Shown here in pieces: positions 16,044-48,904 of a DNA stretch of 64,000 nucleotides (positions within the stretch are counted from its first letter, which is position 1; the number at the start of each line of letters is the position of its first letter). A program made the position numbers and the translations under genes. The stretch comes from Microbulbifer thermotolerans. Its GTDB lineage: Bacteria; Pseudomonadota; Gammaproteobacteria; Pseudomonadales; Cellvibrionaceae. The stretch is taken from the NCBI RefSeq assembly GCF_900112305.1, contig NZ_FOKT01000001.1, forward strand, positions 434,001-498,000, given 5' to 3'. The notes beneath the pieces are model-generated. The model had not been told where the DNA came from, ran no database searches, and was given only the letters and a program-made list of their open reading frames with translations.

Positions 16044-16123
16044 TTTTCGAAATATCCATCCCATTACCTGAGCGCCTCGGAACCAACGACTGTGCTCAGG
16101 TGAATTCATCAGAGGCTCCCTAG
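16044..16123. repeat. Half-length copy of the AATTAATCAGAGG element, CTAG flank
   Basis: It begins at TTTTCGAAATATCC, corresponding to the inner part of the complete element, and ends GAATTCATCAGAGGCTCC followed by CTAG. Internal arms ACCTGAGC (16066-16073) and GCTCAGGT (16094-16101) form a perfect 8 bp hairpin. The CTAG flank contains the stop codon of the leftward radical SAM gene. Confidence 0.75.
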
Positions 16124-17214
16124 AACAGGGATTGCTGTTCACCCGCCTGCGCCGGGGTATGAAAACGGGTGCAGTCCAGCTTTAACTCACGCAGGTTGAG
16201 CCCCAGCTTGTTGACCGCCACGCGGAAGCGCTGGCGCAGTAGCTGTGCGAAAACGCCGGTGCCCGACTGGCGCTGGGCGAAGTCACTCCGATAGTCGCGG
16301 CCGCCGCGGCTCTGTTGTACCAGGCTCATCACGTGGGCGGCGCGTTCCGGGTAGTGGGTGCTCAACCATTGCCGAAACAGCGGCGCCACTTCGTGGGGCA
16401 GGCGCAGCAGTATGTAGGCAGCGTACTCCGCCCCCGCTACCTTGGCAGCTTTTAGAATGGCTTCCAGTTCGCAGTCGTTCAGTGCCGGAATCATCGGCGC
16501 GGCCATAACCGCCGTGGGGATTCCGGCCCTGCTCAAGTGCTCAATTGTGCGCAGCCGTGCCGATGGCCCCGCAGTGCGCGGTTCGAGCTTCCTCTTCAGA
16601 TCGTTGTCCAGGGTGGTTACGCTGATGGCCACTTGTGCCAGTCTGTCTTGCGCCATTTCCGCGAGGATGGGGAGGTCGCGCAGTATCAGCTGGCTTTTGG
16701 TAACGATGGTCACTGGCTGATTGAAGCGTTGCATCACCTCGAGTAGTTCCCGGGTTATGCACTTTTCTTTTTCCAGAGGTTGATAGGGGTCTGTATTGGT
16801 GCCCATAGCGATGGGGGTGCACCGGTAGCCGCTCTTGCGCAGCGCCAATTCCAAGAGTTCTGGCGCGTTGGGTTTGAAAAAAATCCGGCTTTCGAAGTCC
16901 AGCCCCGGCGATAAGTCCATATAGGCGTGGGCCGGGCGTGCGTAGCAATAAATACACCCGTGTTCGCAGCCTCTATACGGATTGACCGATTGACTGAACG
17001 GCAGGTCCGGCGAGCGGTTACTGCTGATAATCGTCTTGGCTTTTTCCTCAATGGCCTCGGTTAACAGCCGTTCCAGGGGTTCTTCTTCGCTCTGCCAGCC
17101 GTCGCTTTCGCGCGCGCTTACCTGCACCGCAAAGCGCCCGGCGAGATTGCTCGCGGCGCCGCGGCCCTTGTGGATTCTGGTGGAGTTGCGGGGATCTTCG
17201 TTGGCCAATTTCAT
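16120..17214 (-). CDS. PA0069-type radical SAM protein (SplB-related)
   Basis: A 364-residue radical SAM protein. The [4Fe-4S] ligands C83, C87 and C90 lie in RGCEHGCIYCYARPAH, and the core SAM fold follows (GTNTDPYQPLEKEK, VTIVTKSQLILRD). It is of the PA0069/Rv2578c group, distantly related to spore photoproduct lyase, and the precise reaction is unknown. The ATG at 17214 starts MKLANEDPRN; a longer frame would cross the LexA box. A near-perfect SOS operator 8 nt upstream indicates damage induction. The TAG stop is part of a repeat-element flank. Confidence 0.85.
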   Translation of the reverse strand: MKLANEDPRNSTRIHKGRGAASNLAGRFAVQVSARESDGWQSEEEPLERLLTEAIEEKAKTIISSNRSPDLPFSQSVNPYRGCEHGCIYCYARPAHAYMDLSPGLDFESRIFFKPNAPELLELALRKSGYRCTPIAMGTNTDPYQPLEKEKCITRELLEVMQRFNQPVTIVTKSQLILRDLPILAEMAQDRLAQVAISVTTLDNDLKRKLEPRTAGPSARLRTIEHLSRAGIPTAVMAAPMIPALNDCELEAILKAAKVAGAEYAAYILLRLPHEVAPLFRQWLSTHYPERAAHVMSLVQQSRGGRDYRSDFAQRQSGTGVFAQLLRQRFRVAVNKLGLNLRELKLDCTRFHTPAQAGEQQSLF

Positions 17215-17221
17215 TACCCTA

Positions 17222-17241
17222 AACTGTATGAATATACAGTT
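17222..17241. promoter_or_regulatory. LexA (SOS) box upstream of the radical SAM gene
   Basis: The core CTGT-N8-ACAG (17224-17239) is embedded in a near-perfect 20 bp palindrome with arms AACTGTAT and ATACAGTT. This is the gammaproteobacterial LexA consensus. It ends 8 nt before the radical SAM start codon, where bound LexA would block transcription or its promoter. The divergent GltB-like gene starts 79 nt away. Confidence 0.85.
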
Positions 17242-17319
17242 TAGGGTGGGCTTGTTGTGCTGTGCAACCCCTGTCGCAAGGGCATACAATTGGGGCCAAA
17301 TCGAACCGGAGAGTGGAGT

Positions 17320-18864
17320 ATGGATTTAGAGGCGGTAGCTGCTATCCGCAATTTCGCAGTCAATGTGCTCCAGATATTCGCGCTGCTGTTTGCGTTTGCG
17401 CTGGTACTGCTGGTGCTTTATGTGCTCTATATGTACCTGTCGGATATCAGCCAGACCAAGCACGCCATCCGGCGCAACTTCCCGGTACTGGGCCGTTTCC
17501 GCTACACCTTTGAGCACCTCGGAGAGTTCTTCCGTCAGTATTTCTACGCTTTGGACCGGGAGGAGCTGCCTTTTAACCGCGCACAGCGCAGCTGGGTTTA
17601 CCGTGCGGCCAAGAATGTTGATTCCACTGTGGCCTTCGGTTCCACCCGACCGCTGAACCAGCCGGGGGATGTGATATTTCTGAATCATCCTTTCCCGACC
17701 CTGGAGAAGGACGCGGTGCCACCGGAGGAGGTCACCGTCGGCGAAGGCTATGTACGGGAACCCTATAGCACCAGTTCCATTTTCAATATTTCCGGTATGA
17801 GTTTCGGCGCCCTTTCGGTGCCGGCGGTGACGGCCCTGTCGAAGGGGGCGGCCAAGGCAGGTATTTGGCTGAACACCGGTGAGGGTGGCCTGTCGCCATA
17901 TCATTTGGTTGGGGGCTGCGACATCGTGTTCCAGATCGGCACCGCCAAATACGGTGTGCGGGATGCGGAGGGCAATCTTTCAGACGACAAACTGCGCGCC
18001 CTGGCGCAGCGCCCTCAGGTGAAAATGTTTGAATTGAAATTGTCCCAGGGCGCCAAGCCGGGCAAGGGCGGTATTCTGCCGGGCGTCAAGGTCACCGAGG
18101 AAATCGCCCGGGTGCGGGGTATTCCAGTCGGTCAGCCCTCTATCAGTCCCAACGGGCATCCGGAGTTCAGTAGCGTGGACGGCCTGTTGGATATGCTGCA
18201 CCACATACGGGAAGTTACCGGTAAACCCACCGGTTTCAAGACAGTGGTCGGCGCCAGTGGCTGGTTGCGCGAGATGTGTGAATCCATCCAGCTGCGAGGA
18301 AGGGAGTATGCGCCTGACTTTATCACTATCGATAGCGCCGACGGCGGTAGCGGAGCGGCTCCGCAGAGCCTGATGGACTATATGGGGCTGCCGATCAACC
18401 GCAGCCTGCCACTGGTAGTGGATCTATTGGCGGAATACGGATTGCGCGACAGGGTCAAGGTGATCTGCTCCGGGAAATTGCTGACGCCTTCGATGGTGGC
18501 CTGGGCACTGGCAATGGGCGCGGATTTTGTGAATTGCGCGCGGGGTTTCATGTTCGCGCTGGGCTGTATTCAAGCGATGCAGTGCAATAAAAACACCTGT
18601 CCTACCGGCGTCACTACCCACAATCCTGACCTTCAGCGCGGACTGGACCCGGTAGATAAGGCCGAGCGTGTCTACAATTATGCGCGCAACATGACGCGTG
18701 AGGTGGGCATCATCGCTCACTCCTGCGGCGTGGCGGAACCGCGCCAGCTGCGCCGCCACCATGTGGAAATCATAGACGAGCGGGGCATGGCGGTGCCGCT
18801 TTCCAGCGCCGCGTCGAACGTCAAACCACAATCGGTGATAGCGTCTGATAAGGGAGTTACGTGA
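17320..18864 (+). CDS. FMN-binding glutamate synthase-family protein
   Basis: A 514-residue protein: an N-terminal membrane span at about 12-36 (LQIFALLFAFALVLLVLYVLY), then a glutamate synthase central/FMN-type barrel. Signature segments are FNISGMSFGALSVPAV, LNTGEGGLSPYH, TIDSADGGSGAAPQSLMD and the cysteine segment QCNKNTCPTGVTTH. It lacks the glutaminase and FAD domains of GltB, so it is not a complete glutamate synthase. Such stand-alone proteins are widespread and mostly uncharacterised; a membrane-linked FMN oxidoreductase role is inferred. The start at 17320 follows GGAG. The antiporter gene follows after 13 nt. Confidence 0.85.
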   Translation: MDLEAVAAIRNFAVNVLQIFALLFAFALVLLVLYVLYMYLSDISQTKHAIRRNFPVLGRFRYTFEHLGEFFRQYFYALDREELPFNRAQRSWVYRAAKNVDSTVAFGSTRPLNQPGDVIFLNHPFPTLEKDAVPPEEVTVGEGYVREPYSTSSIFNISGMSFGALSVPAVTALSKGAAKAGIWLNTGEGGLSPYHLVGGCDIVFQIGTAKYGVRDAEGNLSDDKLRALAQRPQVKMFELKLSQGAKPGKGGILPGVKVTEEIARVRGIPVGQPSISPNGHPEFSSVDGLLDMLHHIREVTGKPTGFKTVVGASGWLREMCESIQLRGREYAPDFITIDSADGGSGAAPQSLMDYMGLPINRSLPLVVDLLAEYGLRDRVKVICSGKLLTPSMVAWALAMGADFVNCARGFMFALGCIQAMQCNKNTCPTGVTTHNPDLQRGLDPVDKAERVYNYARNMTREVGIIAHSCGVAEPRQLRRHHVEIIDERGMAVPLSSAASNVKPQSVIASDKGVT

Positions 18865-18877
18865 CGGAGCGATAAAA

Positions 18878-20131
18878 ATGGAAGGCGTTACCACCTTGGT
18901 GGGGCAGGGACTCTACATGGCCGTAGCCGCGGTGGTAGGCCTGATGTTGGCGCGGATACTGCGCACCGACATTACCCTCGGTTGCCTGATTGCCGGTGTC
19001 CTCGCCGGTGTCCTGTTGCCGGTGCTCGATTACGACACTGGCCTGCGGGCGGCGAATCTGCAGCAATTGGTATTTTTCGTCATACTGCCGGTGCTTATCT
19101 TCGAGGCCGCCTGGCAGATTGAGCCGCGCCTTCTCAAGCGCTGGCTGGGCCCGATATTTCTCTTCTCAACACTGGGCGTGGTGGTCTGTGCGCTGATCAT
19201 CGCTCTGCTCACTTTTTTCGGCATCAACCACCCAGAGGGGTTTCCCTGGATCGCAGCTTTGCTTACCGGCGCCATACTGGCTGCCACAGACCCGGTGTCG
19301 GTGGTCACTAAACTGCGCCAGAGTGATGCGGAAGCGGAGCTACTGACACTGGTGGAAGGGGAAAGTCTATTTAATGACGCGGCGGCGATTGTACTGTTTT
19401 CCCTGGTGCTGGGCGTGGCCAGCCACAGTGTGATGGAGGGAGGCATCGAAACGGGGGAGCCATTGATCGGCGCCGCTGATGTTGCTGTGTATTTTGTGGT
19501 GACTTTTGCAGGCGGCTTGGCGGTGGGACTGCTTTGCGGATTGGTGACCGCGGTTGTGGTGCTGTTTTTGGGCTCGGCCGGAGCGGGGTTGATGACTTTG
19601 GTGCTGGCCGCATTCGGAAGTTTTTATCTCGCCGAGCATGTGGTGCATGTCTCCGGCATCATATCGGTAGTGACCTGTGCCATTGTGGCCCGTGTCTGCC
19701 TGCGCGAGCAGTGCGAAACCTACTTGGTGCATGTGGAGCCCACTTGGGACTGGCTGGGGCTGCTGTTCAATGCGCTGATCTTTGTCATTATGGGAGTCAC
19801 GATTACCTTTGAGATGTTCGCCCATCAGTGGCTGGCGATCTTGATCGCCATTGCGGCCTCCATAGGCGCTCGCGCCCTGGCTATTTTTCTTGTGGCGCCA
19901 CTGGCACACCTCGTGGGTCCGCAGATTCCCAAGGCCTGGCGTCTGATTATGGGGTGGGGTGGGCTGCGCGGCGTGGTTGCGGTGGCCTTGGTGCTGTCGT
20001 TACCGACGGAATTGCCTTATTGGTGGACGGTGCAGTCGATGGTGTTCGGCGTGGTGTTGTTTTCCCTGTTGGTACAAGGTAGCAGCAGTGCCTGGCTGAT
20101 CGGCAAGCTGCAGAAAAACGATCGCTGTTAA
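18878..20131 (+). CDS. CPA1-family Na+/H+ antiporter (NhaP-type)
   Basis: A 417-residue inner-membrane protein with about 11-12 spans. The CPA1 core motif is LLTGAILAATDPVSVVTKLR (about 130-148), followed by LVEGESLFNDAAAIVLF. The C-terminal core has WGGLRGVVAVALVLSLP. No cytoplasmic nucleotide-binding tail is present. It exchanges Na+ (or K+) for H+ and supports pH and salt homeostasis, which fits a marine host. It is 13 nt downstream of the GltB-like gene and is likely co-transcribed with it. Confidence 0.88.
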   Translation: MEGVTTLVGQGLYMAVAAVVGLMLARILRTDITLGCLIAGVLAGVLLPVLDYDTGLRAANLQQLVFFVILPVLIFEAAWQIEPRLLKRWLGPIFLFSTLGVVVCALIIALLTFFGINHPEGFPWIAALLTGAILAATDPVSVVTKLRQSDAEAELLTLVEGESLFNDAAAIVLFSLVLGVASHSVMEGGIETGEPLIGAADVAVYFVVTFAGGLAVGLLCGLVTAVVVLFLGSAGAGLMTLVLAAFGSFYLAEHVVHVSGIISVVTCAIVARVCLREQCETYLVHVEPTWDWLGLLFNALIFVIMGVTITFEMFAHQWLAILIAIAASIGARALAIFLVAPLAHLVGPQIPKAWRLIMGWGGLRGVVAVALVLSLPTELPYWWTVQSMVFGVVLFSLLVQGSSSAWLIGKLQKNDRC

Positions 20132-20318
20132 GCGCAGTCAATTCAGATTCGATTGATCTTGTGTTGCCTACGACCTTGGTCGTATAGCTCCAGCGCGGTG
20201 AATTGCTCAGAGTTTAGCGGCAGCCCGGTGGCTGTGGGTCTGCGTTGTCAATTTCCATCCACGGTGTCGCCCGAACAAGGTGTGGTGACAGGGCGGCAAC
20301 AACAAAAGGAAAATAATA

Positions 20319-21032
20319 ATGAAAAGCCTGTTTTCTGTGTGTATCCGCACTGGATACCTGATTCCGATGCTTTCCGTCTTGTATATCGCGTCCGCGCAGG
20401 CCGGCTGCGTTGACAATGTGGTGTTGGTTCATGGCAACACCGGTTCGCCGTCGGACTGGGACAATACCTATTCTGAGCTGAGGAGCCGGGGTTACAGTGA
20501 AAGCGAGATTTACCGACCGAGTTGGGGGTCCAAGACCTGTGCTGCCTGTAATGATCACAGTGGCTCGGAAGAGACCCCTGTGCGGGATGCGATCAGCAGC
20601 GCCATCGCCGATTCCTGTACCGGGAAGATCGATGTGATCGGGCATTCCATGGGAGTGACTTTGGCGGCGCAGCAGATCATTAAGCTGGGTGTGCAAGACC
20701 AGGTGGATGCGTTTGTCGGTGTCGCTGGCGCCTACCGTGGGCTTTGGAGTTGTGGCACCTATCCGTTTAACGTTTACACCAGTACCTGCGGCAGCAATGG
20801 TCTATCGGTTTCCAGCCCATTTCTCGATTGGCTCTATGGTAAGCCTATTGCGGGAAGGGTGTATTCCATCAAGAGCTGGTCAGATCAAATTGTATGCGCC
20901 ACCGGTTTTTGCACAGTTGGCGGTGTGCACTCCAGTCAAATAGCGGGGGAAGATGCCACTTATACGTATGCCTACGGACACTTTGGCCTGCAGACATATA
21001 CCTACGACCGGCAAGTATCACTGATTCAATAA
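20319..21032 (+). CDS. Secreted class 2 lipase
   Basis: A 237-residue alpha/beta hydrolase. A signal peptide ends at about ASAQA (residue 28). The oxyanion region is VVLVHGNTGSPSDW, the nucleophile S110 lies in VIGHSMGVTL, the acid is probably D189 in KSWSDQIV, and the base is H204 or H221. The mature protein has eight cysteines (30, 74, 77, 100, 145, 157, 193, 198), so up to four disulfides, in keeping with export. The size and motifs fit the lipase class 2 family (Bacillus LipA-like). It stands alone, with a GC-rich palindrome after it. Confidence 0.85.
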   Translation: MKSLFSVCIRTGYLIPMLSVLYIASAQAGCVDNVVLVHGNTGSPSDWDNTYSELRSRGYSESEIYRPSWGSKTCAACNDHSGSEETPVRDAISSAIADSCTGKIDVIGHSMGVTLAAQQIIKLGVQDQVDAFVGVAGAYRGLWSCGTYPFNVYTSTCGSNGLSVSSPFLDWLYGKPIAGRVYSIKSWSDQIVCATGFCTVGGVHSSQIAGEDATYTYAYGHFGLQTYTYDRQVSLIQ

Positions 21033-21175
21033 CAGGGGAGAATTCAATCGCGCTCAACTGAGCAAAGAGCGGGGCGCCTCTGCTCCTTCCACTTGAGCAC
21101 CATAGTTGGTGCAGTGGCGCCCAGGCATGCGACAGATTTGGGATATTTCGTGCCGGTATACAGCGATTAAAGCCG

Positions 21176-21197
21176 GATCGCGGCCATGGCCGCGATC
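21176..21197. terminator. Perfect 22 bp palindrome between lipase and tdh
   Basis: The arms GATCGCGGCC (21176-21185) and GGCCGCGATC (21188-21197) are separated by AT. It lies between the convergent lipase and tdh genes, 12 nt from the tdh stop, and may act as a bidirectional terminator. There is no T-run. A nearly identical stem occurs at 28290. Confidence 0.6.
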
Positions 21198-21208
21198 GCA
21201 AAGGGGGG

Positions 21209-22234
21209 TCACTGCCAGTTCAGGATCACTTTGCCGGACTGGCCGGAGTCCATGGTGTCGAACCCCTTTTGGAAGTCATCGACACTGAAGTGGTGGGTAA
21301 TAATCGGTGTCAGGTCCAGGCCGGACTGAATAAGGCTGGCCATCTTGTACCAGGTCTCGAACATTTCGCGGCCGTAGATGCCCTTGATAACCAGGCCCTT
21401 AAAGATCACCTTGCTCCAGTCGATGGCCATTTCGCCGGAGGGAATGCCGAGCATGGCGATTTTTCCCCCGTGGTTCATTGCGCTGATCATATCGCGGAAG
21501 GCAACGGGCACGCCGGACATTTCCAGACCTACGTCGAAGCCCTCGGTCATGCCAATTTCCTGCATGACGTCTGTCAGTTTTTCACGGCTGACGTTGACTG
21601 TGCGGGTGGCGCCCATTTTTTTTGCCAGGTCCAGGCGGTAGTCATTGATATCGGTGACGACAATATGGCGCGCGCCCACGTGGCGGGCCACGGCGGTAGC
21701 CATGGCGCCGATGGGTCCGGCTCCGGTTATCAGTACGTCTTCACCCACCAAGTCGAAGGACAGGGCGGTGTGCACGGCGTTGCCAAAAGGGTCGAAGATG
21801 GATGCCAGATCGTCGGAAATGTTGTCCGGGATCTTGAAGGCGTTGAGTGCCGGAATCACCAGGTACTCGGCAAAGGCGCCGGGTCTGTTGACCCCCACGC
21901 CGTAGGTGTTGCGACACAGGTGGCGGCGGCCGGCGCGACAGTTGCGGCAGTGGCCGCAAGTGATGTGCCCCTCGCCGGAGACTCTGTCGCCGATTTCAAA
22001 GCCCGCCACTTCTTGTCCCATGCCCACCACTTCACCTACATATTCGTGGCCCACCACCATGGGTACGGGAATGGTTTTCCGCGACCACTCGTCCCAGTGG
22101 TAGATATGCATATCGGTACCGCAGATGGCGGTTTTGCGGATTTTTATCAAGAGGTCGTTGTGGCCCGGGACCGGGGGTTCCACTTCGGTGAGCCAGATAC
22201 CCGGCTCGGCTTTCAGTTTTGACAGTGCTTTCAT
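21209..22234 (-). CDS. tdh: L-threonine 3-dehydrogenase
   Basis: A 341-residue zinc-dependent alcohol dehydrogenase that oxidises L-threonine to 2-amino-3-oxobutanoate with NAD+. The catalytic Zn ligands begin with the Cys in [17 protein letters not shown]. The structural Zn site is [15 protein letters not shown], and the NAD fold is [17 protein letters not shown]. Length and motifs match E. coli Tdh (341 residues). It follows kbl across a 107 bp gap containing a hairpin, so the two enzymes form the threonine-to-glycine pathway. Start ATG 22234. Confidence 0.95.
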
Positions 22235-22284
22235 TGGTTCTGTGCCATGCGCGGCGCTAGGGGTTGGGATTCAATCGCGGCCGA

Positions 22285-22311: not shown

Positions 22312-22341
22312 CGGAGTCGTGTGGCCGCAACCGGTGTTGGA

Positions 22342-23897: not shown

Positions 23898-23900
23898 GAT

Positions 23901-23926: not shown

Positions 23927-24152
23927 CTGACGTGGAAGCGGCGCTTGTAAATTCGCTTTTCCGGTTGGATTGCTCGCTTAGAGCCCCATCGCCCCCTTCG
24001 TGCTCTTGTGGATCGAAGGGGAGCAAACCACCTTGCCCCGGTCGGCAGGTTGGCGTTGGCGTCAGCCACTCTCTGGATGTCGGGGAGCAAAGATAGCGGC
24101 GCGGGAATGGAGCGTCAACCGCACCGCCGCCATAGGGCGGCGGTGCGGAAGA

Positions 24153-29306: not shown

Positions 29307-29383
29307 AAAAACTGCGGTCAACCGGCTTCGAGGCGGTAACAATACTATGCTGCCAGGTGAGAAGCTCGGGCGACCGCTGGGCA

Positions 29384-29510
29384 TTTCGAAATCGCCGAAT
29401 AAAAGGGCGGGAGCGGCGGGCACATGCTCTTGTGTTCTCGAATTGCCGGTTCCACTGCCTGAGTGCCTCGAAACCAGCTTCAGCGCTTACGTGAATCAAT
29501 CAGAGGTATC
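29384..29510. repeat. Degenerate AATTAATCAGAGG element reaching into the mltF-like gene
   Basis: TTTCGAAAT (29384) marks the inner boundary. The right half reads CCTGAGTGCCTCGAAACC and ends GAATCAATCAGAGGTATC. The YTAR flank is not preserved (TGAT). The last ten or so codons of the leftward lytic transglycosylase gene are made by this element, including its TGA stop. Confidence 0.6.
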
Positions 29511-31804
29511 TGATTCTTCTTTTCCTTTGCGGCGGAACCACCGCTTCGCCCGCGGGATTCAGCTATGTCTTCCCTTGCATTTTTTCTGAGTGGCGGGCGT
29601 ACGCTGATCTCTCCGCTGGCCACTGCTGCATAGGCTCGGTAGAGATTGCTGATATTGCGTACATACTGCACGGGCTCGGCGCCGCGCACGTAACCGTAGC
29701 GGGCTTTGCTGAAGTATTGGGGCTCTGACAGTTTCAGCATCGCAACTTCCACATTGCCGAACCATACATTGGGGTCCAGGCCGAGCTCCTCGGCCAAACG
29801 CTGGGCATCCAGGAGGTGGCCATATCCGGCGTTATAGGAAGCCAGGGTGAACCACAGCCTGTTGACCGCTGAGAGCTTTGGACTGAATCTGCTGCGTACC
29901 CAGTCGAGATATTTCACCCCGGCGTTAATATTGCGGTCGGGCTCAAACACCGGCGGTGGAAATCCCATTTCCTCCGCCGTAGCCGGCATCAGCTGCATCA
30001 GGCCCTGGGCCCCAACGGGGGACACTGCATTGGGGTTGAAATTGCTCTCCTGCCACATTTGTGCGACGACCAGACGCCAATCGAAGTCGTAGTCGATGGA
30101 GAAGTTTTTCACCAGACTGTCAAAGGGAGAGAGGTCCTGACCCGGAATAATGCGTGCTTTGACCCTTTGAGTGAAACGCTTATTGGGTTCGAAATAGGCT
30201 GCGAACTGCTTTTCGTATTGCTTGGTTTTTCGATATTTTTTTAGAAAACTGTTCAACCTTTTCAGTAATTCTCTGTTTTCGGGTAACACCATCCAGCCTT
30301 GCGGTTTAGGGTCGCCCAGCAGGGTTCCGGTGATCAGGTTTGGCTGTAGTGAAGCTTCGATTTTAACTGCGTCGCTGTCCGCGACAGAGGCATCCAGCAA
30401 GCCGTCTGAAATCATATTGAATATTTCCGACTGCGAAATACCGGGCGGGGCAACTTGGATGTCCACATCAATACCACTGTCGCGGATTGTCCGCGCTGTG
30501 TCGATAAATGGAGAGAAGGCGCGTAAGGTAAGTGTACGCCCGGCCAGATCCTGGACTTTCGCAATTGGGGGTTTGTCCTTGTTGCTCACCACCTGTTCCG
30601 GGGTTTCCATATAGGAAACTGTGAATTTTACGCCTTCTTTTTCCCGCGCTTCGGTAATGGTGGTGGAGGCGCCGGCAAAGTCACCGCGGCCCGCCTTGAG
30701 CCAGTCGGCCAGGTTTTCGTTGTAGGGAACAACAACAACCTGCAATTGCAGTTTGTGCTTATCGGCGAAGGCTTTGGCCAGGTCGTAGTCGAATCCCATT
30801 AGCACCCCCTTCCATAAAAAATAGGAAGTGGGTCCGTTGTAGGTCAGAAGTCGGATCAGACCGGATTTTTTGATTTGTTTCCAGTCTCCGGTCCGTGCTT
30901 CTTGTTCGCTGACTAGATTGCGGGTAAGGAAGTTGTCGACTCTGACCAGTAGATTTCTTGAGCCTTTGCGCATTCCCCAGGCGACGATTTCCTTTTCCCC
31001 CACATCCCCACCCATGCGTATATCGTCCCGGTAACTGCGCATATCCTCGGCGATATAGTTATAGAGAATGGCAACCCGGTTTTTCCGTGCGTTGAGTAGA
31101 TCCAAAAATTTGTCTTTATCGATGTAGTCGCTGACCTCCCGGATCGTCAGGTTGGCATCGGGGTTTTCTGCGATCAGGCGCTTGGCGGTATCTTCAAAGA
31201 TGGAACCGGGCTGGACGACGAGCTCTACATCACGCAGTTTTTGAACACTGCTGATGTCCGGTCCGTTTCTTCCGGTGACCAGTATTTGCTGGGCGTCCAT
31301 AATGGGAATAGTGAAGTCGATCAGTTCGCGCCGCGCCTCCGTGTCCGTCAGGTCGTAGGCCACTATATCGGCGCGGCCGGTGCGCACCATTTCAATGGCT
31401 TCGGGCGGTGTGCGCGCGCGCAGCCAAACTGGTTCCAGCTTGAGTTTTTCCGCCAGCTTGTTGGCGAGATCGAAGTGGCGCAGTGTGACGATGTGCGCCC
31501 TCGGCAGCATATCTTCCGAGGCCCCGGTGAGGTTTACGAAGCGGATGGTGCCGCGCTTTTTAATGGCCTTGAGGTCGCCGGTCTCGATGTAATTGTCGAT
31601 AGGCGGTTGTTCGGCTTTCTCAGGCAGAGGCACTTTTTCCAGGCGATCTTCAGTCTCCACCGTTTGCTCCGCGGCGCGCTCGGTTTTTTCTGCTCTGCCT
31701 TCCTCTTTCCCGCAGGAGGTGACCAAAAGCAGGAAAACCGCGGAAATGACCACCAGTGCGGCAACGAGGGAAGATGAAGATAAAGCACTGCAACGGCTCG
31801 GCAT
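29480..31804 (-). CDS. MltF-like lytic transglycosylase lipoprotein with two SBP domains
   Basis: A 774-residue envelope protein. The N-terminal lipobox LLLVTSC places it in a membrane. Residues about 78-305 form one extracellular solute-binding family 3 domain (IKKRGTIRFVNLTGASEDM start), and about 313-560 form a second (IKKSGLIRLLTYNGPTSYF start). The SLT domain is at about 565-725, with catalytic E586 in MWQESNFNPNAVSPVGAQGLMQLMP. Ordinary MltF (about 480-520) has only one SBP domain. It cleaves peptidoglycan with 1,6-anhydro ends; the SBP domains may sense muropeptides or amino acids. The C-terminal PLIDSRKR is encoded by a repeat element. Confidence 0.85.
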   Translation of the reverse strand: MPSRCSALSSSSLVAALVVISAVFLLLVTSCGKEEGRAEKTERAAEQTVETEDRLEKVPLPEKAEQPPIDNYIETGDLKAIKKRGTIRFVNLTGASEDMLPRAHIVTLRHFDLANKLAEKLKLEPVWLRARTPPEAIEMVRTGRADIVAYDLTDTEARRELIDFTIPIMDAQQILVTGRNGPDISSVQKLRDVELVVQPGSIFEDTAKRLIAENPDANLTIREVSDYIDKDKFLDLLNARKNRVAILYNYIAEDMRSYRDDIRMGGDVGEKEIVAWGMRKGSRNLLVRVDNFLTRNLVSEQEARTGDWKQIKKSGLIRLLTYNGPTSYFLWKGVLMGFDYDLAKAFADKHKLQLQVVVVPYNENLADWLKAGRGDFAGASTTITEAREKEGVKFTVSYMETPEQVVSNKDKPPIAKVQDLAGRTLTLRAFSPFIDTARTIRDSGIDVDIQVAPPGISQSEIFNMISDGLLDASVADSDAVKIEASLQPNLITGTLLGDPKPQGWMVLPENRELLKRLNSFLKKYRKTKQYEKQFAAYFEPNKRFTQRVKARIIPGQDLSPFDSLVKNFSIDYDFDWRLVVAQMWQESNFNPNAVSPVGAQGLMQLMPATAEEMGFPPPVFEPDRNINAGVKYLDWVRSRFSPKLSAVNRLWFTLASYNAGYGHLLDAQRLAEELGLDPNVWFGNVEVAMLKLSEPQYFSKARYGYVRGAEPVQYVRNISNLYRAYAAVASGEISVRPPLRKNAREDIAESRGRSGGSAAKEKKNQIPLIDSRKR

Positions 31805-39820: not shown

Positions 39821-39824
39821 GGGG

Positions 39825-41463: not shown

Positions 41464-41466
41464 CGC

Positions 41467-42051
41467 TTAGTCTCCCTGAGTATTGCCGGCAACCGCAGTG
41501 GTGTCGGCGCGCCTGGCATTCAGAATGCGGATGGGTACATTGGGGGCATTTGGAAAAGCGCGATAGAGGCCGCGCGGTTCATTAACGATTTTTTCTACCA
41601 CATCCATACCCTGAATGACCCGGCCGAACACAGTGTAACCGGGTTTATCGGCCTGTGCGTCCAGATGGGCGTTGTGCTTCAGATTGATGAAGAACTGTGA
41701 CGTGGCACTGTCCGGGTCGTTTTTGCGCGCCATGGCGAGGGTGCCGCGCAAATTTTTGAGGCCGTTGCCGGATTCGTTGATGACCGGTTCGCGGGTTTCT
41801 TTGAGCTGGAAGTCAAAGGTGTGTCCACCGGTCTGGACCATAAAGTTGGGGATTACCCGGTGGAAAATCACACCGTTGTAGAAGCCGCTGTCCAGGTACG
41901 CTAGGAAATTCTCCACTGTGGCCGGAGCCTTGTCGCGGAAAAGCTCGACCCGGATGAGGCCCAGATCGGTTTTCAGCTCCACTTCAGGGTTGTCGGCCAA
42001 TGCCGGCAGGGCGAGCAGGCAGGTTAAAAAGAGTGCTGTCAAGCTGCGCAT
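41467..42051 (-). CDS. Periplasmic cyclophilin-type peptidyl-prolyl isomerase
   Basis: A 194-residue protein with a signal peptide ending LPALADNP (about residue 20). The cyclophilin fold has FYNGVIFHRVIPNFMVQTGG, ATSQFFINLKHNAHLD and YTVFGRVIQGMDVVEKI, with the catalytic Arg in FHRV. It speeds prolyl isomerisation in folding envelope proteins (PpiA-like). ATG 42051 is chosen because a longer frame would begin in the upstream SH3 gene and cross a repeat copy. It is followed by pdxJ after 3 nt. Confidence 0.9.
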   Translation of the reverse strand: MRSLTALFLTCLLALPALADNPEVELKTDLGLIRVELFRDKAPATVENFLAYLDSGFYNGVIFHRVIPNFMVQTGGHTFDFQLKETREPVINESGNGLKNLRGTLAMARKNDPDSATSQFFINLKHNAHLDAQADKPGYTVFGRVIQGMDVVEKIVNEPRGLYRAFPNAPNVPIRILNARRADTTAVAGNTQGD

Positions 42052-42074
42052 CTTCCGTGTCTCCCGATAAGACC

Positions 42075-42140
42075 GTTCCACTGTCCGAGCGCGTCTGGAC
42101 TCACAGAAGCGCTCGTGTGAATTAATCAGAGTTTCCTTAG
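42075..42140. repeat. Half-length AATTAATCAGAGG element, TTAG flank
   Basis: It ends GAATTAATCAGAGTTTCC followed by TTAG (42137-42140), whose complement carries the TAA stop codon of the leftward SH3 gene. A hairpin with arms CGAGCGC (42086-42092) and GCGCTCG (42109-42115) lies inside. It sits between two genes of the pdxJ operon, so it is transcribed within the mRNA. Confidence 0.75.
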
Positions 42141-42817
42141 TTTGCCCATTCCGAGCGGCGCCGCCGCGGCCGGATAAAGGGCGCAATCATGGCGAGAATA
42201 GCACCCAGTCCCACGGACATAGCGCCGTACATATACCACTTGTGCGCCTCGCTGCTGGACAGGCGCTGAATTTCTGCTTCTGCCATCGCCTGTTTTTGTT
42301 TGAGCAGTTCATGCTGTTTCAGGAGGTTTTGGTGGCGCTCGTTCAGGGCCACGGCGTCGGCGGACAGGGTTTTCAGATCTTTCAGTTCTTTGGCCAGCTG
42401 CTGGGCTTTTTCCCGCTCGCTAGCCAGGGCGGTATTCAGTTTTTGGTTTTCCGCTTCCAGGCGGCGGACCTCGCCGCCCAAGTCCATAGCTTCGAAGCGG
42501 GCCAGGTCAGCTTCAGCCTTCCGCAATTTGATTTTTGCCACTGGCTCGGACACCAGGTACTGGCGGCGCATCCATCCCTCCTGGCCGTCGGGTGTGCGCA
42601 CGTGGGCCCAGCCCTCTTCGGGGGCATCCTCCAGCAGTGTCAATTGAGTGCCGCTGGGAAGGCCGCGGTGCAGAATCCTGAATTCATTGCCTTTGCCCGC
42701 GCGCAGCGGCACGTGCAGCTGATCGGTAATATAGCGAGTGTCTCCGCCTTGCGAACTGGCGGGGGAGGCGATGGCAATCAAGGCAGCGGCCATAAGGCCG
42801 GTCAATTGTTTCATCAT
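42137..42817 (-). CDS. TIGR04211-family SH3 domain envelope protein
   Basis: A 226-residue protein. A signal peptide ends around ASSQGGD. A bacterial SH3 domain covers about 28-95 (YITDQLHVPLRAGKGNEFRILHRGLPSGTQLTLL; WAHVRTPDGQEGWMRRQYL). A coiled coil follows at about 100-190 (VRRLEAENQKLNTALASEREKAQQLAKELKDLK), and a C-terminal membrane span lies at about 197-215, then RPRRRR. The layout matches YgiM/TIGR04211 proteins of unknown function. Its stop codon is provided by the flank of a repeat element. Confidence 0.88.
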   Translation of the reverse strand: MMKQLTGLMAAALIAIASPASSQGGDTRYITDQLHVPLRAGKGNEFRILHRGLPSGTQLTLLEDAPEEGWAHVRTPDGQEGWMRRQYLVSEPVAKIKLRKAEADLARFEAMDLGGEVRRLEAENQKLNTALASEREKAQQLAKELKDLKTLSADAVALNERHQNLLKQHELLKQKQAMAEAEIQRLSSSEAHKWYMYGAMSVGLGAILAMIAPFIRPRRRRSEWAN

Positions 42818-42845
42818 TATTAGAGGAGCACCGTTTGTGATTGGG

Positions 42846-43145
42846 TTACGGAAACAGATGGTTGAAAGGTTTGACCTTTACCGAGGCATAAACGCCGGCT
42901 TCCACATAGGGATCGGCGTCCGCCCAGGCTTTGGCCTCTTCCAGGGAAGAAAATTCCGCGACCACCAGGCTGCCACTGAAGCCGGCTTCACCGGGGGCCT
43001 CGCTGTCGATGGCCGGGCAGGGACCGGCGATCAAAAGCCGCCCTTCGTCTTTCAGGCGGTTTAGCCGTGCCAGATGATCCGGGCGTGCGCCTTTGCGCAG
43101 CGGCAAACTGTTTTCAACGTCCTCGCTGATGATTGCATACCACAT
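42846..43145 (-). CDS. yciI: YciI-like protein
   Basis: A 99-residue ferredoxin-fold protein with the family pattern [40 protein letters not shown] and [21 protein letters not shown]. The His and Asp expected in the pocket are visible (H in RPDHLARL, D in DADPY). Its biochemical role is not defined. It lies between the SH3 gene and a membrane protein gene in the leftward operon. Confidence 0.92.
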
Positions 43146-43190
43146 AAATTGCTTGTGCTCTTTTCGTGTTGTCAGTGATCGAATAGTTGG

Positions 43191-43913
43191 TTACTGCTGA
43201 ACCATGATTTCTTCAAGCTTCAGGCCGGTCAGTTTGCCGATGCGGCGGAACAGAAAGAACAAGACCAGCATCAGGATAATGGTCGCCGGCAGAGCGATTA
43301 CCGGGAAGCTGAGCGCGGTCATCTTGCCCAGTTCCTCGTTGAAAGCCTCAGTGCCGGGGGGGCTTTGTAGCAGTAGCTTGGCCAGAATGTAATTCAGCGC
43401 GGAAGAGAGAAAGAAGGAGCAGGCAATCATCCAGGACGCTTGCTGTAGGGTGCGCTCAAAGGCGGTTTGGTTACCGTTGACTGCCAGGGTGCGGGCGATT
43501 TTCTCTGTGTCTAGAATCCGATCGTTGTATAGCAGTGTCTTGACCAGTGGCCAGCGGGTATAGAGGGAAGCGACGGTGGCGATACCCAGCAGCCCGGGAA
43601 TAGCGGCTTCCTTGATGGCAATATACTGCGCGTCCAGCTCCAGCAGACTGATGCCGCCAGTGAGCAATATGCTGATTATGCCGAGGGCGGAGAAGAAATT
43701 GACTTTGCCGGACTGGGTCAGGTCGCGCAGGCCGTAGGCCAGCGGGAATATCAGCGCAATGACTATCGCCCATTTTGTGCCCAGCCAGTCATCGCCCGAC
43801 AGTTTGGTCAGTATCAGTGTCGGAATGACGATATTGAGTAACAAATTTGCCCAAAGGCTTTCTTTTTGGGGTTGCCGTTCGTTGGTTTGGGATGTCGGGT
43901 TGGTTTCGGTCAT
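43191..43913 (-). CDS. VC0807-family membrane protein
   Basis: A 240-residue integral membrane protein with about six spans: LLLNIVIPTLIL near 25, AIVIALIFPLAYGL near 50, ALGIISILLTGGISL near 75, LLGIATVASLYT near 110, IACSFFLSSALNYILAKL near 165 and VIALPATIILMLVLFFLF near 210. Similar proteins are called the VC0807 family. The function is unknown. It is the first gene of the leftward operon; the promoter should lie just right of 43913, where a hairpin with arms CGGGAAG and CTTCCCG occurs (43938-43971). Confidence 0.8.
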   Translation of the reverse strand: MTETNPTSQTNERQPQKESLWANLLLNIVIPTLILTKLSGDDWLGTKWAIVIALIFPLAYGLRDLTQSGKVNFFSALGIISILLTGGISLLELDAQYIAIKEAAIPGLLGIATVASLYTRWPLVKTLLYNDRILDTEKIARTLAVNGNQTAFERTLQQASWMIACSFFLSSALNYILAKLLLQSPPGTEAFNEELGKMTALSFPVIALPATIILMLVLFFLFRRIGKLTGLKLEEIMVQQ

Positions 43914-44138
43914 GTCTGTTTCCGGTGATAATGCCCGCGGGAAGTTACTTCATATTCAAAATAGCTTCCCGGCTGACGGTGCCGCTGCCAGAATTTGGTT
44001 TCCCCAGAGCTTCCACTTGGAAACCCTTGGTCGGGGCCTTATCCCTGGAACCGCGGGGTGCCCCTGAGACAGCAGCACCTGCGCGTTGTTCAAAAACCGG
44101 GTGTCACTACCCGGCCGAATCTGAGCGAGAATCCTGAA

Positions 44139-45017
44139 TTGAAAGCCCTGTCAGCAGCTGAGGAGGCGATCTGTGCAGATCTGCACTGCCACAGCACTGC
44201 ATCGGACGGTATTTTAAGCCCTACGGCACTGGTGTCGAGGGCGAAATCCCGCGGTGTGACCCTGTTGGCTCTAACTGATCACGACACCGTCGGCGGTTTG
44301 CCCGAGGCTGCCGCAGCTTGTCGCCGCCAGGGCGTGGCGCTGGTGCCGGCGATCGAGTTTTCCAGCCGTTGGGGAAAGCGCCCTGTGCATATTGTCGGCC
44401 TCGATATCGATCCGAATTCCCCCGCGCTGCGGGAAGGCATAGCCCTGCGGGAACGGCTGCGCCGGGAGCGCGCCGAGCGGATCGCTACGAGGCTGGAAAA
44501 GCGCGGCTTTGAGGGTGCGCTGAAAGGCGCCCGGGCGCTGGCTGGTGACGGAGTGATCGGCCGTCCGCACTTCGCCCGCTGGCTGGTGCAGCAGGGATAT
44601 GTGGAGGATAACGGGCGGGCTTTCAAGCGCTATCTGGGTGCCGGCAAGGTCGCGGATGTAAAAGTGGAGTGGCCACAGTTATCCGAGACAGTGGCGTGTA
44701 TCCGGGCCGCCAACGGCGTAGCGGTGCTGGCGCACCCGCTAAAGTACAACCTCAGCCGCACTCAGCTGCGCAGTTTGTTGCGCGACTTCGCAATGGCCGG
44801 TGGCGAAGCGATAGAGCTCCTGTGCGGACGCCAGAATCCGGTGCAGACGCGGGAGCTGCGTCAGCTGATGGAGGCGGTGGCCGCCGAATTGGCGCGGCCA
44901 CCGCTACACTGCTCACTGGGTAGTGACTTTCACCAGCCGGAACAACCCTGGCGGGAGCTGGGGTGTGTGCGCTTGCCGGAGGGGGTTCAGCCGGTGTGGG
45001 CTCTGCTGGGGCGTTAG
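44139..45017 (+). CDS. PHP-domain phosphoesterase (RNase AM/YciV-like)
   Basis: A 292-residue metal-dependent phosphoesterase. PHP motifs are DLHCHSTASDGILSP, ALTDHDTVGGLPEA, VPAIEFSSRW, VIGRPHFARWLV, VAVLAHPLKY and GSDFHQPEQPW, which supply the metal ligands. E. coli YciV (RNase AM) degrades short oligonucleotides and trims rRNA 5' ends. No ATG is available near the N-terminus; I choose TTG at 44139, which places the start 17 residues before the first motif. The yciO gene lies downstream, as in many gammaproteobacteria. Confidence 0.85.
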   Translation: MKALSAAEEAICADLHCHSTASDGILSPTALVSRAKSRGVTLLALTDHDTVGGLPEAAAACRRQGVALVPAIEFSSRWGKRPVHIVGLDIDPNSPALREGIALRERLRRERAERIATRLEKRGFEGALKGARALAGDGVIGRPHFARWLVQQGYVEDNGRAFKRYLGAGKVADVKVEWPQLSETVACIRAANGVAVLAHPLKYNLSRTQLRSLLRDFAMAGGEAIELLCGRQNPVQTRELRQLMEAVAAELARPPLHCSLGSDFHQPEQPWRELGCVRLPEGVQPVWALLGR

Positions 45018-45322
45018 TTGCTCGGCGATGAACTTGTAATGCCCGCCCGTCGGGCTCCTCATCTGCTGCAAACACGCCTATGCGTTCAGGCAATGGGTGA
45101 CCCGCGGTTCTCCTCTGTCCATGGCTGCTATGCAGAAGGGGAGTGATCGGCTGCTTTGCCGAGTGTATCTGTGGCAAACTTGGCCTGCGGCGGGGTTCGA
45201 CAAGGATCGCCGGACAAGTGCGCGGCCATTGCTCATTGGCTGCGGCGATATATCCTTTGAGGGAGGTCCGGGAAGGCCCGGCTGGCAAGATGGATCAGAG
45301 AAGAAATTATTTGGGGGGACCA
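45018..45322. other. 305 bp intergenic region before yciO
   Basis: No gene is supported. A short match to the inner part of the dispersed element (TTCAGGCAATGGG near 45078) is too small to call. A GGGGGG ribosome site lies at the right edge, 4 nt before yciO. Confidence 0.4.
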
Positions 45323-45946
45323 GTGGCTCAGTTTTTTCAAATCCACCCGGACAATCCTCAGGGCAGGCTGATCAGCCAGGCTGCGGACATAGTCGCTGCT
45401 GGCGGGGTCATCGTATTTCCCACCGATTCCGCCTACGCGATCGGCTGCCGACTGGAGGAAAAACTGGCGGTGGAGCGCATCCGCGCCTTGCGTCAATTAG
45501 ATAAACAACACAATTTCACGCTGATGTGCCGCGACCTATCGGAACTGGCCAGTTACGCCAAGGTGGACAATCAGATGTTCCGCCTGCTCAAAAGTCATAC
45601 TCCGGGTCCCTATACCTTTATCATGCCCGCTACAACAGAGGTTCCCCGACGCCTACTGCATCCCAAGCGCAGGACCATTGGTCTGCGTGTGCCCGATAAC
45701 GCCATTGTATTGGCGCTGATCGAAGCGCTGGGCGAGCCGCTGATGAGCTGCAGCCTGATCATGCCCGGAGATACACAGCCTCTGACGGATCCCTACGATA
45801 TTCGAGACACGCTCGAACACCAGGTGGAACTGGTGATCGATGGCGGCTTTTGCGGTATGGAACCCACCACTGTGGTGGATTTGACTGGTGACGAACCGCA
45901 GTTGATTCGCCAGGGCCGCGGCCCCATCGACGAAATCATGGGCTAA
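45323..45946 (+). CDS. yciO: Sua5/YciO/YrdC-family protein, YciO type
   Basis: A 207-residue protein starting with GTG (AQFFQIHPDNPQGRL), exactly as E. coli YciO (206 residues). The YrdC fold is shown by GGVIVFPTDSAYAIGC, HNFTLMCRDLSELASYA, TPGPYTFIMPATTEVPRRLL, KRRTIGLRVPDN and PTTVVDLTGD. YrdC/Sua5 makes threonylcarbamoyl-AMP for tRNA t6A; YciO has a weaker or different activity. An upstream in-frame ATG would add 60 residues with no family match. scpA follows after 78 nt. Confidence 0.92.
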   Translation: MAQFFQIHPDNPQGRLISQAADIVAAGGVIVFPTDSAYAIGCRLEEKLAVERIRALRQLDKQHNFTLMCRDLSELASYAKVDNQMFRLLKSHTPGPYTFIMPATTEVPRRLLHPKRRTIGLRVPDNAIVLALIEALGEPLMSCSLIMPGDTQPLTDPYDIRDTLEHQVELVIDGGFCGMEPTTVVDLTGDEPQLIRQGRGPIDEIMG

Positions 45947-46024
45947 ACCGACGGGTGCTCATGTATAATCGCGCGTTTGCCTCTCCCGATGGGGAGGGGC
46001 CGATGGAGAGCGAGGCGGGGCAGA

Positions 46025-46969
46025 GTGTCCACTGAAGAGTTATTAGCTGAGGCGGAAGAGCAGATATTGGCGGAGGTTGCCGCCGCTGAGGCCGAGGCGG
46101 GCGAAGAGCCGGGAGCCGACCAATCGCCGCGCCAAGGCGAAATGCCTTTCGCCGTGGTGCAGGGGCAGGCCTATACCGAACTACCGGAAGATCTTTATAT
46201 TCCCCCGGATGCGTTGGAGGTGATCCTGGAGGCCTTCGAGGGCCCTCTGGATCTGCTGCTTTATCTGATCCGTCGGCAAAACCTGGATATTCTCGAAATC
46301 AATGTCTCGGATATCACCCGCCAGTACATGGCCTATGTGGAAATGATGACGGCCATGCGTTTCGAGCTGGCGGCGGAATATCTGGTCATGGCCGCCATGC
46401 TGGCGGAGATCAAGTCGCGTATGCTGCTGCCGCGTCCTCCACAGGAGGAAGAAGAAGAGGGTGAGGACCCCCGTGCGGCACTGATCCGTCGTCTGCAGGA
46501 ATACGAGCGCTTCAAGACGGCTGCGGAGGATCTCGATGAGATACCGCGTATGGGGCGCGACATTCATCAAGCCACCGCTCAGGGACCGGACCGCAGTATC
46601 ACGCGCCCGGATCCTGAGGTGGACCTGAAAGAAGTGCTGCTGGCCCTGGCGGAAGTACTCAGGCGCGCGGATATGTTTGAGAGCCATCAGGTGGAGCGGG
46701 AACGGCTGTCCACTCGCGAGCGCATGACCCAGGTACTGGACAAGATCCGCCACCGCCAGTTTGTTCCCTTTGTCAGCCTCTTTACGGTGGAAGAGGGCCG
46801 CCTCGGTGTGGTGGTCACCTTCCTCGCCGTAATGGAACTGGTCAAGGAATCCCTGGTGGAGTTGATACAGAACGAGCCCTTTGGCCCCATCCACGTGCGC
46901 GCCGCGAGCGGCGAAGAGGCTGCCGCTGGCGCGGAAGATGAAGTGGAAGCCGGGCCGGCAATGCCGTAG
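46025..46969 (+). CDS. scpA: Segregation and condensation protein A
   Basis: A 314-residue kleisin that bridges SMC heads with ScpB in chromosome condensation. After an acidic N-terminal extension (about 65 residues rich in Glu and Ala) comes the kleisin N-domain VILEAFEGPLDLLLYLIRRQNLDILEINVSDITRQYMAYV, then EYLVMAAMLAEIKSRMLLPRP and the C-terminal winged helix (VPFVSLFTVEEGRLGVVVTFLAVMELVKE). GTG at 46025 is the likely start (GGGG nearby). The long acidic N-terminus and tail are extra to typical ScpA (about 250-280). scpB follows. Confidence 0.92.
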   Translation: MSTEELLAEAEEQILAEVAAAEAEAGEEPGADQSPRQGEMPFAVVQGQAYTELPEDLYIPPDALEVILEAFEGPLDLLLYLIRRQNLDILEINVSDITRQYMAYVEMMTAMRFELAAEYLVMAAMLAEIKSRMLLPRPPQEEEEEGEDPRAALIRRLQEYERFKTAAEDLDEIPRMGRDIHQATAQGPDRSITRPDPEVDLKEVLLALAEVLRRADMFESHQVERERLSTRERMTQVLDKIRHRQFVPFVSLFTVEEGRLGVVVTFLAVMELVKESLVELIQNEPFGPIHVRAASGEEAAAGAEDEVEAGPAMP

Positions 46970-47082
46970 CGGTTGCGGTTGGTCTGCCGGGCCTGATAGG
47001 CGCCAACCGCGTGGGGAAGTTGCGGCCCTATCGGCCGGACATGCATGATCATAAAGAGAATTCCAAGGTTAGAAACGAGAAG

Positions 47083-47973
47083 ATGACAATTGCTCCGGAA
47101 CTACTGCGCCGCATCGTGGAGGGCGCGCTGCTGGCGGCGGGGCAACCGCTGTCGGAGGACAAGCTGCTGTCACTGATCGACGAGGGCGAGCGCCCGGAAA
47201 AGTCGGAAGTGCGCGGGGTCCTCGAAGAGATCGCCGAGAGCTGCTCGGAGCGGGGCTTTGAACTCAAGCAGGTAGCCAGCGGTTGGCGTTTCCAGGTGCC
47301 AGAGGACCTGGCGCCTTGGGTTAACCGCCTGTGGGAGGAAAAGCCTCAGAAGTACTCCCGCGCAATACTGGAGACGCTGGCGATTATCGCCTACCGCCAG
47401 CCGATCACCCGCGGTGATATCGAGGAGATTCGCGGGGTGGCGGTCAGCTCCCATATCGTCAAGACTCTGACGGAGCGCGGCTGGATCAAAGTGGTGGGGC
47501 ATCGGGATGTGCCGGGTAAACCGTCTCTCTATGCCACTACCAAAGAGTTCCTCGACTATTTCAACTTACGCACCCTGGATGACCTGCCGACCCTGGCGGA
47601 GATTCGCGATATCGACAGTCTCAACCAGCTGCTGGATTTGGGGCAGCAGGAGGGAGGTGACGAGGCCCAGGAGGCGGCTGCGGAAGTGGAAGAAGAGGCA
47701 GTTGCGGCGCCCGGGAAATCCGGTCCCGAAACGGATGACACGCCCCCTGCGAATCCCGAGTCGGAGCGCGCGCCTGTGGCGGGTGGTGAGAGCGAAGACG
47801 CAGTCTCAGGGGAGCTGTCCGGCGATCAGGGTGTCGAGCTTGGAGAAGAGATGGATTCAGAGAAGACAGAGCCGCCACAAGATAGCGAGACTGCCGCATC
47901 CGAAGCGCTGGAAGCCGGGGTGGCAATGAATGAATCCGGGGAAGAATCGCAAGCGGAAAACAGTTCCCTATGA
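47083..47973 (+). CDS. scpB: Segregation and condensation protein B
   Basis: A 296-residue protein. The tandem winged-helix ScpB core occupies about 1-190 ([82 protein letters not shown]). A disordered, very acidic tail of about 100 residues is unusually long (family about 190-200). It works with ScpA and SMC. Translation is coupled to rluB through a 4 nt overlap. The ATG at 47083 is chosen; an in-frame ATG at 47041 is possible. Confidence 0.92.
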
Positions 47974-48836
47974 GTGAAGGTACTTCGCCCGCGGGCGAGA
48001 AACTGCAAAAGGTACTGGCGCGTGCCGGTCTGGGATCGCGGCGCGAGATGGAGCGCGCGATAGAGGCCGGCCGAGTGACCGTGAACGGCACAGTGGCTGA
48101 ACTGGGCGAGCGGGTCACTGAAGAAGACCGTATAGAGTTTGATGGCCGCCGGCTGCCGGTGGTGGAGGAAAGCCGCTGCCGGGTGATTCTGTACAATAAG
48201 CCGGTGGGGGAAATCTGTTCCCGGCACGATCCAGAGGGGCGTCCCACCGTCTACGATCGGCTGCCGCGCTTGAAGACCGGGCGTTGGATTTCCGTCGGCC
48301 GCCTGGATTTCAACACCAGTGGCCTTCTGTTGTTCACCAATAGCGGTGAACTGGCCAATAGATTGATGCATCCCTCTTCGGTGATTGACCGCGAATACCT
48401 GGTGCGAATTCAGGGTGAAGTGGACGATGAAATGAAAAAACGTCTGCTCACCGGGGTGCTGTTGGAAGATGGCGTGGCGCGCTTTACCGATATCGTCGAA
48501 AGCGGCGGAGAGGGCAGAAACCGCTGGTTCTACTGCGTGGTAATGGAGGGGCGTAACCGCGAGGTGCGACGCCTGTGGGAGTCTCAGGGCGTGCGCGTCA
48601 GTCGTCTGAAGCGGGTGCGCTACGGGAGCGTGTTTATCCCTTCCCATGTGCGCGTGGGGCAGTGGATAGAAATGGAGCCCAGGGAGATCGACGATCTATG
48701 CCTGACTGCCGGCCTGCCGAAGCTGGGCCAGCGCCCGCTGACCCCGGTGGAGAGGCAGAGCCTGCAGCGTCAGCGGCGTAAGTTGCGCAAGTCGCCGTCT
48801 CCAGCTTCGCGTCGCGGCAAATCGTCGGGAAAGTAG
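47970..48836 (+). CDS. rluB: 23S rRNA pseudouridine synthase RluB
   Basis: A 288-residue pseudouridine synthase of the RsuA family that modifies U2605 of 23S rRNA. An S4 RNA-binding domain covers about 9-55 ([30 protein letters not shown]). The catalytic D113 is in [13 protein letters not shown], and the C-terminal motif is [16 protein letters not shown]. The tail is basic. The start overlaps scpB (ATGA). The TAG stop is followed at once by a half-length repeat element. Confidence 0.94.
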
Positions 48837-48840
48837 AGGG

Positions 48841-48904
48841 CCCATTGCCTGGGCGCCCCGCAAGTAACGTCAGCGCTCAGGCGGATTAATCAAAGGTTCC
48901 TTAG
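48841..48904. repeat. Half-length AATTAATCAGAGG element after rluB, TTAG flank
   Basis: It starts CCCATTGCCTGGGCGCC and ends GGATTAATCAAAGGTTCC followed by TTAG (48901-48904). The arms GCCTGGGCGC (48847-48856) and GCGCTCAGGC (48873-48882) match at 9 of 10 positions. It begins 4 nt after the rluB stop and may serve as its 3' end hairpin. Confidence 0.75.

Follow-up and report, generated by a model that had tools for sequence, protein, structure and literature searches.

In a 64,000-nucleotide stretch of the Microbulbifer thermotolerans genome (contig NZ_FOKT01000001.1, positions 434,001 to 498,000; hereafter the window), three half-length hairpin repeats next to gene ends are truncated copies of a miniature inverted-repeat transposable element (MITE) that inserts at the four-base target YTAR. 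At two of them, the target holds the native stop codon of the adjacent gene. Insertions on stop codons exceed the random expectation in this genome. Tolerance explains this most simply: insertions persist behind genes, where a YTAR site is often the stop codon.

A sequence-only reading of the window had described hairpins followed by YTAR at 16044, 42075 and 48841. A MITE profile recovered all three and set their limits as follows.

16038-16119, + strand: right-half MITE remnant, profile match to model positions 132-212 of 213; hairpin
42065-42136, + strand: right-half MITE remnant, profile match to model positions 142-212; hairpin
48840-48900, + strand: right-half MITE remnant, profile match to model positions 153-213; hairpin; broken end 3-4 nt past the stop of 47970-48836
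16120-16123: CTAG target flank, holding the minus-strand TAG stop of gene 16120-17214
42137-42140: TTAG target flank, holding the minus-strand TAA stop of gene 42137-42817
48901-48904: TTAG target flank of the third copy, without a stop codon

The stem forms in all three half copies, and each ends in a recognisable right terminal repeat (AATTCATCAGAGGCTCC, AATTAATCAGAGTTTCC and GATTAATCAAAGGTTCC) followed by YTAR; the repeat as originally quoted, AATTAATCAGAGG, is exact in none of them. A left terminal repeat was not seen and a second YTAR flank was not assigned in any of the three, and their break points fall at model positions 132, 142 and 153. Because the left end is missing and the break points are scattered, the half copies in the window are truncations of a longer MITE and not a separate unit. 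The first two flanks contain the ends of open reading frames (ORFs) 16120-17289(-) and 42137-42817(-), which confirms that YTAR doubles as a stop codon at both places. The third copy fits this description in part. It begins just behind the end of ORF 47970-48836(+), as had been claimed, but the end adjoining that stop is the broken one, and 64 nt separate its YTAR end from the stop of the next gene, which faces it.

Two genes end in the target flanks.

16120-17214, - strand: radical SAM protein gene (PF04055), native C-terminus QSLF (window copy PCF end, QQSLF)
42137-42817, - strand: SH3-domain protein gene (PF08239), native C-terminus SEWAN

Matches to the three neighbouring genes were present in 47, 46 and 47 relatives, and 29 relatives were examined per gene. 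The protein encoded by 42137-42817(-) ends at the same residue in 29/29 and that encoded by 16120-17214(-) in 25/29, the other four being one or two codons longer. No element was seen by eye in the relatives' flanks at either gene (107 nt per locus). The terminal repeat in the window genome starts at the base right after the stop at both 16120 and 42137. Because relatives without a visible element end at the same residue, these two stops are native: the element landed on the stop codon and the protein was unchanged. The proposal that insertion can occur at a stop codon without damage therefore holds for both genes. The neighbour of the third copy, 47970-48836, is a pseudouridine synthase gene whose C-terminus is variable among relatives.

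The MITE consensus, built from 29 oriented copies, is 213 bp long with 17-bp terminal repeats (GGAACCTCTGATTAATT / AATTAATCAGAGGTTCC), and no transposase gene fits within it. The genome-wide search used an end pattern consisting of the terminal repeat end plus YTAR. This pattern, AATTAATCAGAGGTTCCYTAR with up to 3 mismatches, gave 184 forward and 186 reverse matches (about 370 ends), compared to 1 + 0 for the reversed control, and the repeat thus recurs far beyond the few copies noticed in the window. A profile search of 1.66 Mb (the window and four 400-kb blocks, hereafter the block sample, which supersedes a first pass on 864 kb) returned 158 hits: 78 two-ended copies (70 of at least 190 bp), 59 one-ended copies and 21 without ends. 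Identical 4-mers flank 46 of the 78 two-ended copies, whereas 2000 shuffles averaged 11.0 and never exceeded 20; element ends could be moved by at most 2 nt to obtain a YTAR flank, and the shuffles used identical ends. The 4-bp YTAR duplication is found in 22 of the 30 best full copies. These results identify the element as a transposon that inserts at YTAR with a 4-bp duplication, in agreement with the earlier suggestion that YTAR is the target.

The window holds two further copies.

11631-11844, + strand: complete MITE copy with CTAA on both sides (11627-11630 and 11845-11848)
29348-29510, + strand: decayed MITE copy containing the stop of gene 29480-31804(-)

The complete copy folds as a single long hairpin (RNA z -10.3), and 5 nt separate its end from the stop codon of gene 11850-12608(-). 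Called genes end within the element in 6/158 hits, three of them 15 nt in, so the MITE itself can supply a stop. The final 31 nt (29480-29510) of the frame of gene 29480-31804(-), which encodes solute-binding and SLT transglycosylase domains, are repeat-derived. Three consecutive MITE matches sharing ends at G000:C14:16323-16877 (L059) form a nested or unequally recombined array. Repetitive extragenic palindromes and bacterial interspersed mosaic elements (REP/BIME) consist of a single palindrome without a duplicated target. A REP-like identity was rejected because the 213-bp element has 17-bp terminal repeats and a duplicated YTAR. REP/BIME are described as 20-40 bp palindromes tagged GTAG or CGTC (PMC3733652).

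Gene calls came from a small Markov-model caller built for this analysis. An insertion with a matching duplication was scored as clean, and its original target was classified after in silico removal of the element together with one duplicate. The 79 clean insertions comprise 44 from the block sample and 35 from 49 stretches picked for well-preserved ends. Nine of the 44 are on a stop codon, 34 are intergenic and 1 is in a gene, and the corresponding background YTAR sites, cleared of insertion sites, number 278, 2798 and 3112, with 171 at block edges. The further 35 divide into 8, 27 and 0. In total, 17 of the 79 lie exactly on a stop codon and 1 lies inside a gene. Outside genes, stop-codon insertions account for 17/78 versus 9.0% of the background (Fisher P 0.001). 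The calculation per target type, in which the background still includes insertion sites, gives 17/74 versus 6.5 expected, 2.6 times the random-YTAR expectation (P about 2e-4); the 74 omit the in-gene insertion and 4 YTAT targets that fit none of the three target classes. The excess on stop codons is therefore real. CTAG rarity was rejected as its cause because the share of stops hardly varies among the target types (8.2 to 9.3%).

The insertions are concentrated at gene 3' ends as a whole. A facing stop is no more than 60 nt away for 44 of the 74, versus 13.2 expected. The median distance to the facing stop in the block sample is 39 nt for insertions and 330 nt for background sites; convergent gaps are over-used (17/43 insertions versus 21.8% of background sites) and divergent gaps under-used (3/43 versus 22.4%). 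Stop codons make up 45 to 52% of the YTAR sites in the 60-nt zone, depending on target type, and within this zone they are hit 17 times out of 44 compared to 21.6 expected (P 0.11), which means they are not preferred. A YTAR-only conditional test on the block sample points in the same direction (stop codons 7/22 versus 50%); it kept 38/44 insertions after sites near other remnants, non-YTAR targets and places without two called neighbours were dropped. When the analysis is restricted to gaps of up to 1000 nt, the stop-codon excess is not significant (7/32 versus 15.1%, P 0.32) and the 60-nt excess persists (21/32 versus 503/1670, P 5e-5). Mapping against random YTAR sites thus upholds the stop-codon excess anticipated by the sequence-only reading but not a preference for stops over other YTAR sites at 3' ends. 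With most insertions in the 60-nt zone and no preference for stops inside it, the pattern is one of survival at gene 3' ends.

We consider the following explanation very probable as a whole. The element is a non-autonomous transposon of about 213 bp, probably moved by an IS5-group transposase acting on the 17-bp terminal repeats, and insertion into YTAR duplicates those four bases. The YTAR pattern reads the same on both strands and includes TAA or TAG, so that a stop on either strand survives an insertion at Y-TAA or Y-TAG. Selection would then remove insertions in and upstream of genes, and the remainder would be concentrated just behind genes, where stop codons supply about half of the YTAR sites. 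Half copies would arise by later deletions. Selection rather than target choice is the probable cause of the 3' bias.

An IS5-group mover is suggested by the terminal repeats. The window genome has 4 IS5-type transposase matches (PF05598). The ends of the IS5-type elements in contigs C28 and C30 agree with the MITE terminal repeat at 15/17 positions, and an IS5-type element in another genome, G008, has 16/17 terminal repeat positions in common with the MITE. The target duplication of IS5 is Py-T-A-Pu, most commonly CTAG (PMC5493358, PMC10359306). The insertion sequence (IS) copy in C28 appears to run off the contig, a copy in C15 is without one end, and in the C30 copy the frame continues into an apparent second transposase. 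This C30 extension presumably carries an IS66-like motif, for which no search was made. Because no partner copy examined is complete, we infer that the MITE is moved by an IS5-group transposase from the likeness of the ends. Contig C15 (locus L079) also has an IS5-type transposase ORF of 322 amino acids at 901-1869, and a MITE copy begins a few bases past the start codon of this ORF, at the position expected for the outer IS end.

The same end pattern was found in another family of the same order. Genome G025 has 90 + 88 matches, and in the 6 places examined its element has a terminal repeat agreeing at 16/17 positions and YTAR on both sides. The interior differs, with lengths of 258-261 bp in five places and 160 bp in one, and similarity to the MITE profile is weak and confined to the ends (best E value 0.002). 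Five of 40 termini in G025 lie exactly on a facing stop compared to about 1.5 expected (3.8%, one-sided; 39 outside genes, P 0.016), with a gene caller trained on only 124 kb. The stop-codon excess is thus not confined to the window genome. Seven of the 40 lie within 60 nt of a facing stop, a weaker 3' bias than in the window genome. Although small, the G025 sample is the strongest argument that more than tolerance may be at work. Eleven loci in five genomes of the order, L285-L290 (G025) and L291-L295 (G008, G020, G023 and G004), hold MITEs of 160-264 bp that have an almost identical terminal repeat, clearly different interiors and, in 8/11, YTAR on both sides. Across an order, a single family of terminal repeats is thus combined with several interiors.

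Several points weigh against the explanation given above. In G025, 5 of the 7 termini within 60 nt sit on the stop itself. The background in the window genome holds some genes missed by the simple home-made gene model. Of the 79 clean insertions, 35 come from selected stretches, and all 79 had to match YTA[A/G/T], so their target motif is partly present by construction. The 3' bias could in part be target choice, and structural features have been proposed to guide IS5 (PMC5493358). No intact autonomous IS with a matching repeat was seen among the partner loci examined (C30, C28 and C15).

One alternative is that the machinery directs the element to stop codons, preferring TAA or TAG at gene ends and perhaps guided by terminating ribosomes, RNA 3' ends or local DNA structure. 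The overall excess in the window genome and the G025 termini, of which only two beyond those on the stop lie within 60 nt, are in line with this; the lack of any stop preference within the 60-nt zone in both tests argues against it. The surroundings of the 44 empty sites in the block sample, all chosen to have YTA[A/G/T] as target, show no marked sequence context outside it and only a weak A/T skew at a few positions. Direction to stop codons is very unlikely. A separate short element family in place of truncations is more improbable still. Short two-ended forms do occur, such as the 123-bp copy with TTAG on both sides at C21:371853-371975, and many weak one-ended hits start between model positions 141 and 163, but the window halves, with their missing left ends, unassigned second flanks and scattered break points, exclude a fixed short family for the window copies. 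A special tie between half copies and stops, implied by the sequence-only reading, also failed to appear. Among the 59 one-ended copies, the intact end is within 4 nt of a facing stop in only 8 and within 60 nt in 17, and the broken end in 4 and 21. Half copies are thus not specially tied to gene ends. The 8 are near the 6.4 expected from half of the 17/79 rate of clean copies, and deletions that spare the stop-proximal end were rejected as not significant (intact 8 versus broken 4 of 59, P 0.39).

Retention of the hairpin halves as messenger 3' end elements, acting as decay barriers or as terminators that replace native ones, is unlikely. The hairpin type GCCTGAGCGC...GCGCTCANGC is present in the MITE consensus, and folding is more than 1.6 sd better than the shuffle mean in 4/6 strand tests. 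Covariation was measured in alignment A1 (54 of 58 thinned right halves used; 110 before thinning). The paired fraction is 75.7% versus 75.5% in shuffled alignments, no measure is clearly above the shuffles, and RNAalifold predicts no helix from the right-half alignment. In a slide control the maximum falls at the true register, the outcome anticipated from a founder copy that already carried the hairpin. Rfam returned no match at the three half-copy sites at gathering scores; elsewhere in the window it identified a SAM-I/IV riboswitch at 23956-24085(-) and a t44 RNA at 62331-62432(+). A weak 5-pair terminator-like match on the minus strand, 48854-48840, overlaps the third copy. No such match is present in 41950-42250, and the one weak 5-pair match in 15900-16250 straddles the edge of the first copy, with 0.5 expected. 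Orientation relative to a single facing gene is the same in 6 cases and opposite in 14 (P 0.12, block sample). There is no sign that the hairpins are maintained by selection.

A stricter script detected an intrinsic terminator in the convergent gap 48837-48964, behind the pseudouridine synthase gene, in 15/28 relatives' loci (among L199-L227) and none in the window genome, where the MITE half is in its place; the comparison covered 30 loci, with L200 left out, leaving 28 relatives and the window genome. The missing terminator is only a lead because 13 of the 28 relatives also have none. Takeover of the messenger 3' end may have occurred at this gap, where the terminator of about half of the relatives examined is missing. 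The broader proposal, in which YTAR elements use stop codons as genome-wide safe harbours, target choice alone seeds hairpins in 3' untranslated regions (UTRs) and some remnants then took over the messenger 3' end, is improbable.

The nearest described element found is MITEPsy1 of Pseudomonas syringae, possibly derived from ISPsy2 (PMC3189936). MITEPsy1 likewise has terminal repeats, of 18 nt and ending TCTGAAAAAGCC, and a 4-nt duplication of CTAG or YTAA (PMC3189936). It differs in being 100 nt long with six copies in strain 1448A, two of which interrupt loci (PMC3189936); the Microbulbifer MITE has 213 bp and 78 two-ended copies in 1.66 Mb, and the terminal repeats agree at 11/17 positions. 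IS5 of Escherichia coli shares the Py-T-A-Pu duplication but, unlike the MITE, encodes its own transposase (PMC5493358, PMC10359306). The BOX, RUP and SPRITE repeats of Streptococcus pneumoniae are read as parasitic and are enriched between convergent genes, BOX encodes the 3'-end stop codon in 36 cases, and accumulation behind genes through tolerance is already described for these repeats (PMC3049150). RUP differs in its TA target and IS630-type mover (PMC2229807), and in contrast to the pneumococcal repeats the duplicated target of the MITE is itself the native stop. The ERIC / RU-1 repeats are likewise MITEs joined to gene 3' ends, but at ECA3499 in enterobacteria the repeat removed the normal stop and extended the protein (PMC2759123). 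The Microbulbifer MITE kept the stop at both genes compared with their orthologs, and also in 17 clean insertions. Among the open papers listed, judged by titles and abstract starts, none dealt with Microbulbifer MITEs or with YTAR elements located at stop codons. The novelty lies in the MITE family itself and in the count of the duplicated target as the native stop in 17/79 clean insertions. Landing on stop codons without harm is neat but was largely to be expected, as one instance of such elements surviving at gene ends.

These results document a transposon that duplicates a host stop codon as its target, in a form that is clean and can be counted. The stop-codon excess in the window genome is real and has two sources: insertions are concentrated at gene 3' ends, and stop codons make up about half of the YTAR sites in that zone. 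The results also describe a MITE family in Microbulbifer and show that, across an order, nearly one terminal repeat is common to MITEs with clearly different interiors. For annotators, hairpins directly on stop codons are explained without invoking regulation.

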